A stretch of 64,000 nucleotides of DNA from Agromyces atrinae (GTDB lineage Bacteria; Actinomycetota; Actinomycetes; Actinomycetales; Microbacteriaceae), in the NCBI RefSeq assembly GCF_013407835.1, contig NZ_JACCBI010000001.1, positions 620,001-684,000 on the forward strand, read 5' to 3'. Below are positions 11,772 to 17,742 of the stretch, piece after piece; the first letter of the stretch is position 1, and each line of letters starts with the position of its first letter. Position numbers and translations under genes: made by a program. Below the pieces are notes generated by a model. That model made no database searches and had not been told where the DNA came from. It saw nothing but the letters and a program-made list of their open reading frames with translations.

Positions 11772-11927
11772 TGAAGCAGGACCCGTTCACGTCCGCGTGG
11801 CAGCGACTTTCGCAGCCAGATCTCCGCGGACTTGACATGGGTCTTCGTAATGTCACTTTTACCACTGGCCGGATCGATTCCGGCGAAGCTGCATCATCCC
11901 GAGACTGCAGCGTTGAGAGGTTTTCGA

Positions 11928-13259
11928 ATGGCGACTGCCACCACTAAATCCGCCGCACCGACGTCTGAGGCCGCCGAGCCCGAGACCGTTGCAGCGACGA
12001 AGGCCCCGGCAAAGAAGCCGGCGGCGAAGAAGGCGCCCGCGCGGAAGCCGGCGGCGTCCGAAGGCAAGCCCGCGACCGAGACGAAGCCGACGCGCGCTCG
12101 TGCGGCGAAGAAGACCGCTTCGTCCGACGAGTCGCCCGAGGGTGAAGACGACGACGAGGGCGACTCCGACGAGCCGACCGTTGTCGTCGACGTCGAGGTC
12201 GGCACCGACGACTCGACGGACGACTCCGACGACGACGAGGCGAAGCCCGCGATCCCCGTAGAACCGCACCCGACCGGCGCGATCGTTCTGCGTGCCGTCG
12301 ACGACGAAGACGAAGTCCCCGTCTACTCGGCTCAGATCACCGGCGCCACGGCCGACCCCGTCAAGGACTACCTGAAGCAGATCGGAAAGGTCGCGCTCCT
12401 GAACGCGGCCGAAGAGGTCGAGCTCGCCATGCGCATCGAGGCGGGTCTCTTCGCCGAAGAGAAGCTGGCGCACATGGCTGACGCCGAGAAGCGCTCGCAG
12501 CTCGGCCGCGAGCTCCAGTGGGTCGCGCGCGACGGCCAGCGTGCCAAGTCGCACCTCCTCGGAGCCAACCTCCGTCTCGTCGTGTCGCTCGCGAAGCGCT
12601 ACACGGGTCGCGGCATGCAGTTCCTCGACCTCATCCAGGAGGGAAACCTGGGTCTCATCCGTGCAGTCGAGAAGTTCGACTACACGAAGGGCTTCAAGTT
12701 CTCGACCTACGCCACGTGGTGGATCCGTCAGGCGATCACGCGCGCGATGGCCGACCAGGCCCGCACGATCCGCATCCCCGTGCACATGGTCGAGGTCATC
12801 AACAAGCTCGCTCGCGTGCAGCGCCAGATGCTCCAGGACCTGGGCCGCGAACCCACGCCTGAAGAGCTGAGCCGTGAGCTCGACATGACTCCTGAGAAGG
12901 TCATCGAGGTCCAGAAGTACGGTCGCGAGCCCATCTCGTTGCACACGCCACTCGGTGAAGACGGCGACAGCGAGTTCGGCGACCTCATCGAGGACACCGA
13001 GGCCGTCGTCCCCGCCGACGCCGTCGGCTTCACGATGCTGCAGAAGCAGCTCGAGAGTCTGCTCGACTCGCTGTCGGAGCGTGAGGCGGGTGTCATCCGC
13101 ATGCGCTTCGGTCTCGGGGACGGCATGCCGAAGACGCTCGACCAGATCGGTGACACGTTCGGCGTGACGCGTGAGCGCATCCGCCAGATCGAGTCGAAGA
13201 CGATGGCGAAGCTCCGCCACCCGTCGCGGTCGCAGTCGCTGCGCGACTACCTCGAGTAG
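11928..13259 (+). CDS. sigA: principal RNA polymerase sigma factor
   Basis: 443 residues, group 1 sigma-70 (RpoD/HrdB/SigA). Residues 1-70 are Ala/Lys/Pro-rich ([16 protein letters not shown]) and 65-110 strongly acidic, the poorly conserved actinobacterial N-terminal region. Region 1.2 starts at about 141 ([12 protein letters not shown]), region 2 contains [20 protein letters not shown] residues ([24 protein letters not shown]) and [13 protein letters not shown], and region 4.2 ends with [20 protein letters not shown]. The ATG is preceded by GAGAGG at 7 nt; a longer frame upstream lies in the leader. Followed at 7 bp by murT. Confidence 0.97.
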
Positions 13260-13266
13260 GAGAGCA

Positions 13267-14523
13267 GTGCGGTACGCTCCGGCGGTCGCCGTCGGCCGAG
13301 TGGTGCGCGTCCTCGCGCGCCTGCGAAAGCCGGGCGGCGGTTCGGCGGTGCCCGGCCTCGTGGTCAATCGGATCGCACCGGGGTACCTTCCGGCGACCCT
13401 CGGAGGGTTCCGAGACGGGCTCCTCATCGTCTCGGGATCGAGCGGTAAGTCGACGACGACGAAGATGCTCGTGGCCGTTCTGCGTGCCCACGGCCTCTCG
13501 GTCTTCACGAACCCGTCGACCGCGAACATCAGTCAGGGGCTGACCTCGGCGCTGCTCGAGCAATCGGATTGGCGGGGCCGCGTGCCCGGCGACATCGGCG
13601 TGCTCGAGATGGACGAGGGGCACGGTGCGCTCGTCATGCGAGGGATCGACGCACGTACGGTGACTCTCACGAACATCATGGTCGACCAGATCGACCGGTT
13701 CCACGACTCCGAGATGGTCGCCGGCATGCTCGGCCGCATCGCCGGCCGAGCTCGTGAATCCGTCGTGATCAACGCGGACGACGCGTATCTCGAGACCCTC
13801 GCCGATCGTGTGGTCGACGGCATCGCCGTGCATCGGTTCGGTGTCTCCGCCGAGGTGCTCGCGAGTGCGCCCCGCGGACTCGGGTACACGCAGACAACCG
13901 ACGCTCGCCTCACGCCGGGCGAGGGAGTGCGCGTCGAGTCGGTCGTCGATCGTTCGACGGTCCTCACATCGCGCGGCGACGAGATCGTCGTCGGGCTCCC
14001 AGCCCGAGGCATCCACTACGCGGTCGACGCCGCTGCAGCCTATGCGACGGCGGAGGCCGTGCTCGGCGAGCGGTTCTCCTCGGAGATCGCGGCGAAGGCC
14101 CTCACCGACATCCCCGCCGTCTTCGGCCGCGGTGAGCGGACGACCGTTCGCGGTCAGCTCGTCGAGTTCGTGCTCGTGCAGAACCCGGCGAGCTTCCAAC
14201 TGAACGTCGACAGCATCGCACCCGGCACGAGCCCCATCCTCTTCGCCATGGGCTCCGATGTGCGCGATCCGTCGTACTTCTGGCCCGTGGATCCGTCGAG
14301 CCTCGGACGCGTGGCGATCGTGAGCGGATCGAAGGCCGACGAAGCCGCTCTCCACCTCGTGTACGGGGGAGTAGCGGTCGATCGGATCGAGCACGATCTC
14401 CACCGCGCGATCGACGACTTCCTCGCTCTACCGACCCCCGAGGTCGGAGTGAAGACGATCGTCTTCACCGCCGACTCGATGCGGCGTGCACGCGCCCACC
14501 TCGGAATGACGGAGACCGCATGA
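13267..14523 (+). CDS. murT: MurT-like Mur ligase, atypical (no Cys4 ribbon)
   Basis: 418 residues. Mur-ligase central domain with the ATP loop GSSGKSTTTK (57-66) and NADD, plus a C-terminal DUF1727 domain; MurT activates the alpha-carboxyl of D-Glu in lipid II with ATP, and GatD normally supplies ammonia. Oddities: the protein contains no cysteine, so the four-Cys zinc ribbon inserted in known MurT proteins is missing. The GatD-facing stretch, typically NDN..ADGRDVSW.WD, reads MGSDVRDPSYFWPVD (328-342). The GTG at 13267 has GGAGAG upstream, within the sigA stop. Its stop overlaps the gatD start (ATGA). It may act on another amine than ammonia; see findings. Confidence 0.85.
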   Translation: MRYAPAVAVGRVVRVLARLRKPGGGSAVPGLVVNRIAPGYLPATLGGFRDGLLIVSGSSGKSTTTKMLVAVLRAHGLSVFTNPSTANISQGLTSALLEQSDWRGRVPGDIGVLEMDEGHGALVMRGIDARTVTLTNIMVDQIDRFHDSEMVAGMLGRIAGRARESVVINADDAYLETLADRVVDGIAVHRFGVSAEVLASAPRGLGYTQTTDARLTPGEGVRVESVVDRSTVLTSRGDEIVVGLPARGIHYAVDAAAAYATAEAVLGERFSSEIAAKALTDIPAVFGRGERTTVRGQLVEFVLVQNPASFQLNVDSIAPGTSPILFAMGSDVRDPSYFWPVDPSSLGRVAIVSGSKADEAALHLVYGGVAVDRIEHDLHRAIDDFLALPTPEVGVKTIVFTADSMRRARAHLGMTETA

Positions 14524-15251
14524 CCCTCGAGATCGTTTCGCTGCTCCCGTCGCTGCTCAACACCAACGGTGACGCGGAGAACGCGCGCGTGCTCCTGCGC
14601 CGTGCGGAGTGGGCGGGGATCGACGCTCGCGTCAGTACCGTCGAGCGCGCGGCCGAGCTTCCGAGCGAACCCGACCTCGTCGTCATCGGATCGGGAAGCG
14701 ACGCGAGTCTCGGGGAGGCGCGACTGCGACTGTTCGACATGCTCGACGAGTTGCGCCGCTGGGGTACCGATCGAGTGGGTGTGCTCGCCGTCGGAACCGG
14801 CTGGGAGCTCCTCAGCTGGGGTATCGAGTTCGCCTCGGGCGAGCAGCTCGAGGGCCTGGGCGTGCTGCCCGGTCGAGCCGTTCCCCGCGTCGAGGGGCGT
14901 GTCACCGGTGATCTCGTCATCACGCGCAAGGGTGCCCGACTCGTCGGGTTCGAGAACCACGAGCGCGACTACGTCGGCGCCGAGGCATCACCGCTTGGCC
15001 GTGTCGTCGCCGGCGCGGGCAACGGCCGCGGATCCGCCCAGGAAGGCGTCGTCACGGGAACCGTGATCGGCACGCACCTGCACGGACCGGTGCTCGCGAA
15101 GAACCCGACGCTCGCTGATCAGATGCTGACGACAGCGGCCGAGCGACGAGGTATCGAGTACCAGGTCGGCTCGGCCGCGGTGAAAGTCGACGACTTCGCG
15201 AAGGGAGCGCGGAACGCTGTTCTGCGTTCCCTGTCTCTTCCCGAAGACTGA
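14520..15251 (+). CDS. gatD: GatD-like glutamine amidotransferase lacking the nucleophile Cys
   Basis: 243 residues, class I (CobB/CobQ-like) glutaminase fold. Family landmarks are clear: IVSLLPSLLNTNGDAEN at the N-terminus, EGLGVLPG, VGFENH, the GAGN..G..EG segment and GTHLHGP with His188. The nucleophile elbow, which in GatD reads A-I-C-G-G-Y-Q, is here AVGTGWE (90-96): Gly92 replaces the catalytic Cys and Glu96 the Gln. Glutamine hydrolysis by the standard thioester route should be impossible. Overlaps murT by four bases, so the pair is made together. The fold may be kept as a structural partner or may bind another amine donor. Confidence 0.85.
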   Translation: MTLEIVSLLPSLLNTNGDAENARVLLRRAEWAGIDARVSTVERAAELPSEPDLVVIGSGSDASLGEARLRLFDMLDELRRWGTDRVGVLAVGTGWELLSWGIEFASGEQLEGLGVLPGRAVPRVEGRVTGDLVITRKGARLVGFENHERDYVGAEASPLGRVVAGAGNGRGSAQEGVVTGTVIGTHLHGPVLAKNPTLADQMLTTAAERRGIEYQVGSAAVKVDDFAKGARNAVLRSLSLPED

Positions 15252-15258
15252 ATCGGGT

Positions 15259-15495
15259 CTACGGCTTCGAGTCTCCGAGAAGCCGAGCCGACTCGTCGTG
15301 CCAGCTGTGGGCGATCTGCGAGAGCTTCTCCTGGTACTTGCGCCCGTGGTGAGCGCAGAAGAGAAGTTCGCCGCTGTTGACGACGACCCGGATGTACGCC
15401 TGTGCTCCGCAGCTGTCGCAGCGGTCGAGCGCAGTGAGTTCGTGCGGGGTCTCGAGTTCGTCGACGGAACCGTTCGTGCTGGTGAACTGAGTCAT
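15259..15495 (-). CDS. small zinc-ribbon protein, DUF7455 family
   Basis: 78 residues: TALDRCDSCGAQAYIRVV, then LFCAHHGRKYQEKL, giving CxxC and CxHH zinc ligands. This conserved actinobacterial family sits near the principal sigma factor and the topoisomerase genes. Function unknown; its length and ribbon suggest binding to a nucleic acid or RNA polymerase, which is inference. Strong ribosome binding site GGAGGAGG before the ATG. Convergent with gatD, 7 bp apart. Confidence 0.8.
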   Translation of the reverse strand: MTQFTSTNGSVDELETPHELTALDRCDSCGAQAYIRVVVNSGELLFCAHHGRKYQEKLSQIAHSWHDESARLLGDSKP

Positions 15496-15649
15496 GGTGC
15501 CTCCTCCGTCGTGCGTCCCGGGATTTCGGGTTCATCAATGTAAACACGTGGACCGTTGACCCTATGCCACATCTCGGGGCATTTCGCTGTGCGCGTAGTC
15601 GATCGGCGGCGGTCGGGTGTCGGTGCGCCTCACGCGCGGGGGCGCGAAC

Positions 15650-15655
15650 TAGGCT
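15650..15655 (+). promoter_or_regulatory. -10 box before parE
   Basis: TAGGCT followed by 8 nt and the GTG at 15664; there is no Shine-Dalgarno, consistent with a leaderless mRNA. Confidence 0.5.
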
Positions 15656-15663
15656 CGTCAATC

Positions 15664-17742
15664 GTGAACTCCGACTACTCCGCACGCCACCTCTCCGTCC
15701 TTGAGGGTCTCGAGGCTGTGCGCAAACGACCGGGAATGTACATCGGTTCGACCGATGCCCGCGGTCTCATGCACTGCCTCTGGGAGATCATCGACAACTC
15801 GGTCGACGAGGCCCTCGCCGGACACGGTGACCGCATCGACGTCGTGCTCCACCCCGATGGCAGTGTCGAGGTGCGTGACACCGCGCGCGGCATCCCCGTC
15901 GATGTCGAGCCGAAGACGGGTCTCACCGGTGTCGAGGTCGTGTTCACCAAGCTCCACGCGGGCGGCAAGTTCGGATCCGGATCGTACGCGTCGTCCGGCG
16001 GTCTCCACGGCGTGGGAGCCTCGGTCGTCAACGCGCTGTCGGAGCGGCTCGACGTCGAGGTCGATCGCGACGGCAAGACGTACACGATGTCGTTCCACCG
16101 TGGTGAGCCCGGGACGTTCGCCGACACGGGCGCGCCGAGCCCTGATGCTCCGTTCACCCCGTTCGAGAAGTCGAGCACGCTGCGCGTCGTCGGCAAGGTC
16201 GCCAAGGGCGTCACGGGAACGCGTGTGCGGTACTGGGCCGACCGTCAGATCTTCACGCGCGGCGCCGAGTTCCAGGTCGAGGAGCTCCTCGGACGCGCTC
16301 GACAGACTGCCTTCCTCGTGACCGGTCTCGGCATCGAGATCGCCGACGAGCGTCTCGAGGAACGCGAGGTCCACTCGTTCCGCTACGACGGGGGCATCGC
16401 GGAGTTCGTCGACTACCTCTCCGTCGATTCGCCGCTGACCGACACGTGGCGCCTGACCGGTTCGGGCACGTTCACCGAGACCGTCCCCGTCCTCAACGAG
16501 AACGGCGCGATGCTGCCCACCGAGCTCACACGAGAGTGCGAGGTCGACATCGCTCTGCGCTGGGGTACGGGGTACGAGACCGTCACGCGCAGCTTCGTCA
16601 ACATCATCGCCACCCCGAAGGGCGGCACGCACCAGAACGGCTTCGACCAGGGCCTGCTGAAGTTCATCCGCACCCAGGTCGAGCAGAACGCGCGACGTCT
16701 GAAGGTCGGCAACGACAAGATCGACAAGGATGACGTGCTCGCCGGTCTCACGGCAGTCCTCACCGTTCGCCTGCCCGAGCCGCAGTTCGAGGGGCAGACC
16801 AAGGAGGTCCTCGGAACTCCCGCTGTGCGCGCGATCGTGGCGAACGTCGTGGCGAAGTCGCTCGCCGAGCGCTTCTCGTCGACGAAGCGCGACGACAAGG
16901 CACAGACCGCGCTTGTGCTCGACAAGGTCGTCGCCGAGATGAAGTCGCGCATTTCGGCGCGAGCGCACAAAGAGACCCAGCGTCGCAAGAACGCGCTCGA
17001 GAGCTCGTCCCTGCCGGCGAAGCTCGTCGACTGCCGCTCGTCCGACGTGCAGCACAGTGAACTCTTCATCGTCGAGGGAGATTCCGCCCTCGGCACGGCC
17101 AAGCTCGCGCGCGACAGCGAGCATCAGGCGCTCCTGCCGATCCGAGGGAAGATCCTCAACGTGCAGAAGGCGAGCGTGTCCGACATGCTCTCGAACCTCG
17201 AGTGCGCATCGATCATCCAGGTGATCGGCGCCGGTTCGGGGCGCAGCTTCGACCTGTCGGCAGCGCGCTACGGTAAGGTCATCATCATGAGCGACGCCGA
17301 CGTCGACGGTGCGCACATCCGCACGCTCCTCCTCACGCTCTTCTTCCGCTACATGCGCCCGATGATCGAAGAGGGACGCGTGTTCGCGGCGGTCCCGCCG
17401 CTGCATCGCGTCGTCGTCATGAACCCCGGATCGAAGCCGAACGAGACGATCTACACGTACTCCGAGGCGGAACTCCACGGCGTTCTCGCGACACTGCGGA
17501 AGCAGGGGAAGCGCTACCAGGACCCGATCCAGCGCTACAAGGGACTCGGCGAGATGGATGCCGACCAGCTGGCCACCACGACGATGGACCGTCGGCAGCG
17601 CACGCTCCGTCGCGTCGGAGTGTCGGACGCCGAGAACGCCGGCCGTGTCTTCGAACTGCTCATGGGCAACGAGGTCGCTCCCCGCAAGGAGTTCATCATC
17701 GACTCGGCGACGGACCTCAGCCGCGAGCGCATCGACGCCTGA
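15664..17742 (+). CDS. parE: DNA topoisomerase IV subunit B (ParE-type GyrB homologue)
   Basis: 692 residues, type IIA topoisomerase ATPase subunit. The GHKL ATPase motifs are EIIDNSVDEAL, DTARGIPVD and GGLHGVGASVVNALS; the Toprim domain has FIVEGDSA and IMSDADVDGAHI, and the C-terminus has RYKGLGEMDADQL. Its position next to sigA and DUF7455, facing a second GyrA-type gene, matches the topoisomerase IV pair of Streptomyces rather than gyrB beside recF/dnaN. Start GTG chosen by the TAGGCT box and the conserved N-terminus (YSARHLSVLEGLEAVRKRPGM). Confidence 0.88.
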   Translation: MNSDYSARHLSVLEGLEAVRKRPGMYIGSTDARGLMHCLWEIIDNSVDEALAGHGDRIDVVLHPDGSVEVRDTARGIPVDVEPKTGLTGVEVVFTKLHAGGKFGSGSYASSGGLHGVGASVVNALSERLDVEVDRDGKTYTMSFHRGEPGTFADTGAPSPDAPFTPFEKSSTLRVVGKVAKGVTGTRVRYWADRQIFTRGAEFQVEELLGRARQTAFLVTGLGIEIADERLEEREVHSFRYDGGIAEFVDYLSVDSPLTDTWRLTGSGTFTETVPVLNENGAMLPTELTRECEVDIALRWGTGYETVTRSFVNIIATPKGGTHQNGFDQGLLKFIRTQVEQNARRLKVGNDKIDKDDVLAGLTAVLTVRLPEPQFEGQTKEVLGTPAVRAIVANVVAKSLAERFSSTKRDDKAQTALVLDKVVAEMKSRISARAHKETQRRKNALESSSLPAKLVDCRSSDVQHSELFIVEGDSALGTAKLARDSEHQALLPIRGKILNVQKASVSDMLSNLECASIIQVIGAGSGRSFDLSAARYGKVIIMSDADVDGAHIRTLLLTLFFRYMRPMIEEGRVFAAVPPLHRVVVMNPGSKPNETIYTYSEAELHGVLATLRKQGKRYQDPIQRYKGLGEMDADQLATTTMDRRQRTLRRVGVSDAENAGRVFELLMGNEVAPRKEFIIDSATDLSRERIDA

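Follow-up and report, generated by a model that had tools for sequence, protein, structure and literature searches.

The window analysed here is a 64,000-nucleotide stretch of Agromyces atrinae DNA (contig NZ_JACCBI010000001.1, positions 620,001 to 684,000), taken from a genome assembled as one contig of 3.65 Mb. Between sigA and parE it carries a murT-gatD pair that resembles the MurT-GatD lipid II isoglutaminyl synthase, yet encodes a GatD without the nucleophilic Cys. We consider this pair as a candidate ligase for the interpeptide bridge of group B peptidoglycan, the cross-linking through D-Glu that Schleifer and Kandler reportedly classified in 1972. In window coordinates, the locus comprises the following features:

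11832..13259, plus strand: sigA, primary sigma factor (open reading frame), left border of the site
13267..14523, plus strand: murT variant, 418 amino acids, Mur-ligase middle domain and MurT_C, zero Cys
14245..14292, plus strand: MurT residues 327-342, the shortened GatD-facing loop AMGSDVRDPSYFWPVD, which contains Asp334, the counterpart of S. aureus Asp349
14520..15251, plus strand: gatD variant, 243 amino acids, class I glutamine amidotransferase domain without its nucleophile
14793..14795, plus strand: codon of GatD Gly92, at the position of Cys94 in the alignment to S. aureus GatD
15081..15083, plus strand: codon of GatD His188, kept here (the His is lost in 28 of 95 Cys-less loci of the family)
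15259..15495, minus strand: small gene between gatD and parE, 78 amino acids with one CxxC
15556..17742, plus strand: parE, topoisomerase IV subunit B (open reading frame), right border of the site

Alignment to S. aureus GatD (PDB 5n9m) places LAVGTGWELL of the window protein opposite LTICGGYQFL, such that Gly92 falls on Cys94; His188 (S. aureus His189) and Arg127 (Arg128) are kept, while Asn16 occupies the position of Tyr17. Here and below, published accounts are cited from excerpts; in those on S. aureus, GatD Cys94, GatD His189, and MurT Asp349 form the proposed catalytic triad, and the lid residue Tyr17 and Arg128 are part of the glutamine site. The window MurT is intact at P-loop Lys61, Glu114, and Asp334, but three residues are absent before Asp334 relative to the canonical ND.YADGRD.SW. 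These results bear out the preliminary description of the locus, which had been made from the DNA letters and had claimed replacement of the nucleophile by Gly92 with His188 and the remaining GatD fold preserved (GATase_3, PF07685, 63.3 bits), a MurT devoid of Cys (the count is zero in GatD as well), a diverged GatD-facing loop next to an intact ATP loop, and a 4-bp overlap of the two plus-strand genes. MurT matches Mur_ligase_M (PF08245) with 45.6 bits and MurT_C (PF08353) with 26.0 bits (cut-off 25), and the pair misses the NCBI isoglutaminyl-synthase equivalog cut-offs by far (best MurT 73.6 of 800 bits, best GatD 107.4 of 450 bits). A second, canonical murT-gatD elsewhere in the genome, one of the findings that the preliminary description had named as refuting a bridge function, did not turn up: the whole genome gave a single MurT_C match, and its three further GATase_3 matches are PdxT, PurQ, and HisH. 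The closest named GatD relatives are Agromyces proteins of 62-69% identity.

The Cys loss is no defect of one strain and reaches far beyond one genome. In a sample of 150 genomes of GTDB Microbacteriaceae, 108 gave a GatD match to the window protein. Loci from the GatD search (30) and 80 further fetched regions, aligned after removal of repeats of one sequence per genome and with L001-L005 left out, amounted to 112 family loci from 104 genomes. The Cys is missing in 95 of these 112, the nucleophile column reading Gly in 67, Ala in 18, Cys in 17, Ser in 4, Asn in 3, Thr in 2, and His in 1. Counted by genome, 87 are exclusively Cys-less, 14 exclusively Cys-bearing, and 3 hold both types; four GatD-positive genomes (G053, G111, G118, G123) lie outside this count, and two of them, G118 and G123, are Cys-less when read separately. 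Outside the family (the best 27 of 41 order-sample matches plus the best 27 of 49 further phylum-sample matches), both Cys and His are present in all 54 GatD loci. Since the loss is common to 95 of 112 family loci and to none of the 54 outside loci, it is not a matter of chance. The smallest genome of the sample, G015 (927,303 bp; L189), retains a Cys-less pair as well, with Ser at the nucleophile position and with both of the racemase-fold genes described below.

A further 79 named loci were retrieved with a Cys-less query and therefore constitute a biased set; 75 of them are Cys-less, from genera that include Agromyces, Leifsonia, Cryobacterium, Rathayibacter, Plantibacter, Glaciihabitans, Amnibacterium, and Rhodoluna. 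Three Eggerthellaceae loci of this set (L103, L105, L106) encode MurT and GatD in one open frame; together with four Clostridia loci (L098, L101, L102, L104), they have Asp or Gly at the nucleophile position, a MurT loop of canonical form, and CxxC pairs. Within the family, L118 (G122) and L117 (G113) are second Cys-less pairs away from the sigA site, in genomes that hold another Cys-less pair. Cys-bearing pairs with a Cys4 ribbon are found away from sigA in L174, L176, and L179 (G128, G083, and G059), whose genomes nest near Cys-less ones on the ParE tree; this suggests a replacement.

Further residues change along with the nucleophile. None of the 95 Cys-less family loci has Tyr at the Tyr17 position, which is Tyr in all 17 Cys-bearing family loci and in all 54 outside loci. 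The MurT loop is shorter by three residues in the Cys-less relatives as it is in the window, and its DG.D motif was present in none of the Cys-less Microbacteriaceae rows scored (163 Cys-less rows of the combined alignment lack it, 7 have it). The Arg128 equivalent is retained in 91 of 95 Cys-less family loci, and their MurT rows of sufficient length keep P-loop Lys61 in 94 of 94, Glu114 in 94 of 94, and Asp334, the Asp349 equivalent, in 93 of 94. Because Cys and Tyr are lost in GatD and the loop is shortened in MurT, the glutamine site has been taken apart on both sides of the interface, with the ligase residues retained. The Cys4 ribbon of MurT does not belong to this pattern. Its absence from the window protein, pointed out in the preliminary description, is real, but as a specific mark of Cys loss it has to be abandoned: among 27 live (Cys-bearing) pairs from the order's other families, 25 have no CxxC and 2 have one, such that loss of the ribbon is not coupled to loss of the nucleophile. 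Absence of the ribbon from MurT of some Actinobacteria had already been reported.

In a tree built from 114 MurT rows (each genus represented by a single Cys-less row, two second copies added, rows of 350 residues or fewer excluded; a quick method with one substitution model), 56 of 57 Cys-less family rows form one clade with a Shimodaira–Hasegawa-like approximate likelihood ratio test (SH-aLRT) value of 100, adjoining live pairs of the order. The sole Cys-less family row outside this clade, L192, represents a second Cys-less type that has CxxC motifs, Thr-His-Asn where the nucleophile would be, and, in the three loci in which it was read (L192, L301, L303), Asn in place of the Asp349 equivalent. 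Pairs of this type were read in six loci (L192, L301-L305) and, in more divergent form, in G123; in L301-L304 they lie behind sigA. The second type is apparently an independent recruitment.

Position is the next feature that sets the Cys-less pairs apart. Upstream sequence long enough to judge was available for 88 Cys-less family loci: in 84 the pair immediately follows sigA, and of the four that deviate, two are the second copies L117 and L118. None of the 17 Cys-bearing family loci occupies this position. The seven genomes that have exclusively a live pair and a readable site (G014, G047, G133, G070, G003, G096, G016) have no more than a small or unconvincing frame separating sigA from parE, as do G051 and G121; G049 and G119 have ABC (ATP-binding cassette)-transporter-like genes at the site, and five low-GC regions (L335, L345, L348, L349, L354) lacked usable gene calls. 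A small opposite-strand gene, as in the window, is called between gatD and parE in many other loci too. Over all 150 family genomes, we count 94 with the main Cys-less class (GatD read in 90; G095, G027, G081, and G144 placed from MurT alone), 11 with the second type (seven read, four placed by score or genus), 21 with the CofE-type protein discussed next, 14 with a live pair as their sole module, 2 with a partial MurT (G005, G038), and 8 with none of these.

Genomes that lack MurT mostly carry a different ligase-like gene, which stands at the same address in the loci that were read. With no match at E 1e-30 as the criterion for MurT absence, 30 of the 150 genomes lack MurT; strong matches to a homologue of CofE, the F420-0:gamma-glutamyl ligase, occur in 21 of these 30 versus 0 of the 120 MurT-bearing genomes (Fisher test 6e-19, uncorrected for kinship), in addition to three weaker matches in the MurT-bearing genomes G053, G123, and G147. 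Among the regions of 13 MurT-lacking genomes, 12 encode an F420_ligase-family protein of about 230-240 amino acids, and the thirteenth, L294, is a different part of its genome; two of these proteins were tested against Pfam F420_ligase and scored 49.3 and 56.9 bits (cut-off 25), the others being assigned by similarity. In 11 of the 12 regions the gene stands directly behind sigA, the remaining one, L288, beginning at a contig start and thus lacking sigA; an ATPgrasp_ST-type gene is present in 10 of them and a racemase-fold gene in all 12. Fourteen CofE-type loci were read at the sigA-parE site, among them L286:3562-4266, L292:772-1467, and L298:3521-4219. Although proteins similar to this type carry the database name F420-0:gamma-glutamyl ligase, an F420 function is doubtful because one homologue gave a CofE equivalog score of 30.6 bits where 180.65 are required. 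The window's genome gave no CofE-type match and no match to the accompanying ATP-grasp protein.

Both kinds of module can occur within one genus. In the order sample, genus g85 has the CofE type in G215 and G229 and the Cys-less pair in G106 and G257, and seven family-sample genera contain both one CofE-type and one MurT genome, six of them with the main Cys-less class (g7, g9, g13, g58, g77, g84) and one with the second type (g59). The ATP-grasp gene follows the CofE type (19 of 21 genomes) more than the second type (5 of 11) or the main class (2 of 94). A ParE tree of 95 rows, 14 of them CofE-type, requires a minimum of 12 switches between the CofE label and that of the main Cys-less class, 4 of which are forced for the CofE label by the starred branches alone; rows without a usable ParE stretch were excluded, G215, G229, and G257 of the order sample were included, and genomes outside the typed lists, including G005 with its partial MurT, were labelled Cys-less. 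The scatter of the CofE label fits frequent swaps, and it fits a poorly resolved tree as well.

Other genomes have genes at the site that might supply the bridge amino acid. Of the 149 loci searched (those of at least 5.5 kb), 23 contain racemase-fold genes in the interval from gatD to parE, examples being L128:2125-3950, L165:4758-6493, and L189:1944-3825; the genes form a tandem pair in 20 of the 23, and GatD is Cys-less in every one. We aligned 16 chains of the first gene (A) and 17 of the second (B). Chain A, 206-264 amino acids long in 13 of 16, has the pyridoxal phosphate (PLP) lysine in 0 of 16, with Arg, Ser, Thr, or Asp instead, and the tyrosine motif VSY in 16 of 16; chain B has the PLP lysine in 17 of 17 and VSY in 0 of 17 (L123 has FSYG at another column). 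In alanine racemase, the PLP lysine and the catalytic tyrosine meet across the dimer interface. Because the two losses are complementary and concern residues that meet in this way, chains A and B look like one obligate heterodimeric racemase. A transaminase for 2,4-diaminobutyrate (Dab), EctB or a homologue, adjoins the CofE-type gene in G057 and G020, the G057 protein scoring 603 bits against the EctB equivalog (cut-off 552). In the window, no supply gene for a bridge amino acid is adjacent to the pair; an EctB homologue of 60% identity is encoded elsewhere in the genome, and it may instead serve ectoine synthesis.

For the wall chemistry we rely on genus-level matches, the peptidoglycan types coming mostly from strains other than the sequenced ones. 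Beyond the family, group B walls are known from Eubacterium, Acetobacterium, and Erysipelothrix. Thirteen Microbacteriaceae genera in the named set have a Cys-less pair; five of them are typed, and all five contain Dab: Agromyces (A. aureus, B2gamma, D-Glu-L-Dab; PMC5217419), Cryobacterium (B2gamma), Glaciihabitans (B10), and Compostimonas (B1, L-Dab) (all PMC7033078), and Rhodoluna (R. lacicola, B2beta (B10), D-Ala-D-Dab and Gly-D-Glu; PMC4156110). Clavibacter has a D-Dab bridge as well (PMC9603630), Microbacterium species have Lys, Orn, or Dab, and Lysinibacter has L-Lys in a structure given as unknown (PMC7033078). Of the CofE-type genera found among the 120 of 6649 matches listed, six are typed; Frigoribacterium (B2beta, D-Lys), Homoserinimonas (B2beta, D-Orn), Salinibacterium (B with Lys and Orn) (PMC7033078), and Paramicrobacterium (B2 with D-Orn; PMC10757982) contain Orn or Lys, and Lacisediminihabitans and Cryobacterium, each represented in that list by one metagenome-assembled genome (MAG), are Dab genera. 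A rule equating the CofE type with Orn or Lys was dropped on account of these two MAGs. Leifsonia occurs both in the list of Cys-less pairs and among those 120 listed matches. Two genomes that we take to belong to Rhodoluna, G010 and G092, gave one racemase-model match each, as expected for a plain alanine racemase. A second rule, by which racemase genes would indicate D-amino acids and their absence L-Dab, was likewise given up, as Rhodoluna has D-Ala-D-Dab (PMC4156110).

Taken together, the pair is probably a glutaminase-free MurT-GatD that would act as an amino-acid ligase on the D-Glu alpha-carboxyl of a peptidoglycan precursor, building the group B bridge with GatD as its partner. We regard this as the best reading because it accommodates the single-origin Cys-less clade, the change in the MurT loop, the retained ligase residues, and a chromosomal site that houses racemase-fold genes, a transaminase for Dab in two of the CofE-type clusters, and a substitute ligase that is mutually exclusive with the pair. 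The conserved residues and the chemistry of the family suggest that MurT would use ATP to form an acyl phosphate on the D-Glu alpha-carboxyl, which a free amino acid rather than ammonia would then attack; in this genome, the nucleophile would most likely be Dab, given the wall chemistry of the genus and the EctB homologue. GatD, having lost glutamine hydrolysis, would persist as an obligate partner and might, in what is the weakest step of the scheme, bind the incoming amino acid through the kept Arg127. Loss of the lid Tyr and of part of the GatD-facing loop would fit a larger nucleophile. The product would be the first bond of the interpeptide bridge, which transpeptidases would subsequently join to D-Ala. 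The main precedent comes from S. aureus, where neither MurT nor GatD has activity singly, and where the GatD C94G complex leaves glutamine unused, with NH3-dependent amidation unaffected at pH 8.5 and none at pH 7.5 (PMC3266927); by analogy, a bridge ligase of this kind is mechanistically plausible. The proposal of the preliminary description, in which the ATP-activating half couples D-Glu to an amino acid of the bridge and a dead GatD serves as its partner, is thus supported in part and is the best reading. The pair is not the sole route, considering that 21 of the 150 genomes have the CofE type and no MurT.

Several observations weigh against this assignment. Eight of the 150 family genomes (G019, G022, G049, G051, G062, G119, G121, G146; two of them 87% complete) have neither a pair nor a strong CofE-type match. 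Some D-Glu is amidated in the muropeptides of Clavibacter (PMC9603630). In Leucobacter, typed as B with Dab and gamma-aminobutyrate in L. chironomi (PMC4511665), GatD proteins are the nearest matches of the Cys-bearing family GatD type (query rows L148, L172, and L182 read CGLYQ), and two genomes of the Leucobacter genus group, G096 and G014, have nothing but a small gene between sigA and parE; either Leucobacter has another bridge route or its wall needs re-examination. No racemase pair turned up in the genome of the window, where the racemase model gave one gene (likely the housekeeping alanine racemase) and the model of chain A itself was not run. For all the loci that share it, the Cys loss of the main clade represents one evolutionary event. 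Cys-less named loci also occur beyond the family, in four Clostridia, three Eggerthellaceae, and two Bacillota MAGs, and all seven Cys-less rows with a DG.D motif are from Clostridia or Eggerthellaceae. The preliminary description had named Cys loss in many A-type species as a refutation; none was seen in the 54 outside-family loci, whose hosts we take to have group A peptidoglycan, and the nine Clostridia, Eggerthellaceae, and Bacillota loci may bear on it, depending on their wall types. Finally, the CofE label is barely clustered on the ParE tree (12 changes versus a shuffle mean of 13.3, a value as low being reached in 67 of 500 shuffles), and poor ParE resolution could therefore inflate the number of swaps.

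The main competing explanation, which we judge unlikely, is that the pair still amidates D-Glu with free cytoplasmic ammonia, yielding isoglutamine and no bridge. The intact ligase residues of MurT, the ammonia use of the S. aureus C94G complex at pH 8.5 (PMC3266927), and the partial amidation in Clavibacter (PMC9603630) would all agree with it. However, at pH 7.5 that complex did not use NH3 (PMC3266927), and amidation would block a bridge at the very same carboxyl in genera that are called B-type; ammonia use would also leave unexplained the swap with the CofE type, the linked racemase-fold genes and EctB, and the changes in loop and Tyr. It is less probable still that the pair serves as a scaffold to which another glutaminase or transferase hands ammonia or another amine in trans, an idea that could account for a GatD kept with Arg127 although its nucleophile is gone. 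The other GATase_3 matches of the genome are PdxT, PurQ, and HisH, which speaks against such a donor within this fold, other glutaminase folds not having been searched for; in other genomes, moreover, several genes close to the site have no assigned name, which further limits the strength of this counter-argument. A comparably small chance attaches to the pair adding glycine or another simple amino acid to D-Glu, with a different enzyme adding the diamino acid. Some group B bridges do start with residues other than a diamino acid. Gly or D-Ser on the D-Glu alpha-carboxyl is known from other bacteria, but all five typed genera with the pair have Dab, and the ATP-grasp gene, whose product might add a second residue, is present in only 2 of the 94 main-class genomes. 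That the pair is a decaying relic, as the missing Cys and Tyr, together with a His that is absent from 28 of 95 loci, might suggest, is highly improbable in view of almost invariant ligase residues, a preserved position behind sigA, the absence of internal stops among the matches listed, the 4-bp overlap in the window, and retention of the pair in the 0.93-Mb genome G015.

Beyond the assignment of the pair as a bridge ligase, the sigA-parE interval of Microbacteriaceae may be a locus for the group B bridge, occupied by any one of three ligase modules that can replace each other (the main clade of Cys-less MurT-GatD, the second, zinc-ribbon-motif Cys-less MurT-GatD, or the CofE type, usually with an ATP-grasp protein), with the two-gene racemase supplying a D-amino acid in many genomes and the module helping to set the bridge. 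We put this forward tentatively, as somewhat short of an even chance, and our confidence in it decreased slightly because the equation of the CofE type with Orn or Lys failed. In open-licence literature on B-type peptidoglycan with MurT, GatD, or F420 ligase, searched at the level of listings, no paper found names the enzyme for the bond between D-Glu and the bridge; a published survey describes murT-gatD as universal in Actinobacteria and, in the part that we cite, does not mention Cys-less forms. What is new beyond the loss of the GatD Cys is the chromosomal site shared with alternative ligases and the split racemase. The analysis thereby provides named candidate ligases and a chromosomal address for group B bridge formation, it points to a way in which an amidotransferase could turn into an amino-acid ligase, namely through loss of its glutaminase, and it suggests that the names lipid II isoglutaminyl synthase and F420 ligase may be wrong for the proteins of this family that bear them.

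Compared with the MurT-GatD lipid II isoglutaminyl synthase of S. aureus and S. pneumoniae, the window pair shares the adjacent genes and the combination of a Mur ligase with a class I glutamine amidotransferase domain, and relative to the S. aureus enzyme it has the ATP-site residues, MurT Asp349, and the GatD His and Arg128 equivalents. It differs in lacking the GatD Cys, Tyr17, three residues of the MurT loop, and the Cys4 ribbon, and in scoring far below the NCBI equivalog cut-offs. The laboratory mutant C94G shares the Cys-to-Gly change, and its MurT still needs GatD and uses free ammonia at pH 8.5; unlike the window pair, it contains a canonical MurT, and the excerpted account does not mention amino-acid nucleophiles. 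MurC, MurD, MurE, and MurF, to which the window MurT is weakly matched through the shared central domain, are ligases that use ATP to extend a peptidoglycan precursor by a free amino acid or by a dipeptide. MurT has no N-terminal UDP (uridine diphosphate)-binding domain of the kind they possess; a truncated form of it is mentioned in the literature excerpts. MurT further differs from these ligases in requiring GatD, and its acceptor would be the D-Glu alpha-carboxyl. With CofE (F420-0:gamma-glutamyl ligase family, PF01996), finally, MurT-GatD has no domain in common, and yet in other genomes a CofE homologue stands behind sigA where murT-gatD would otherwise be.

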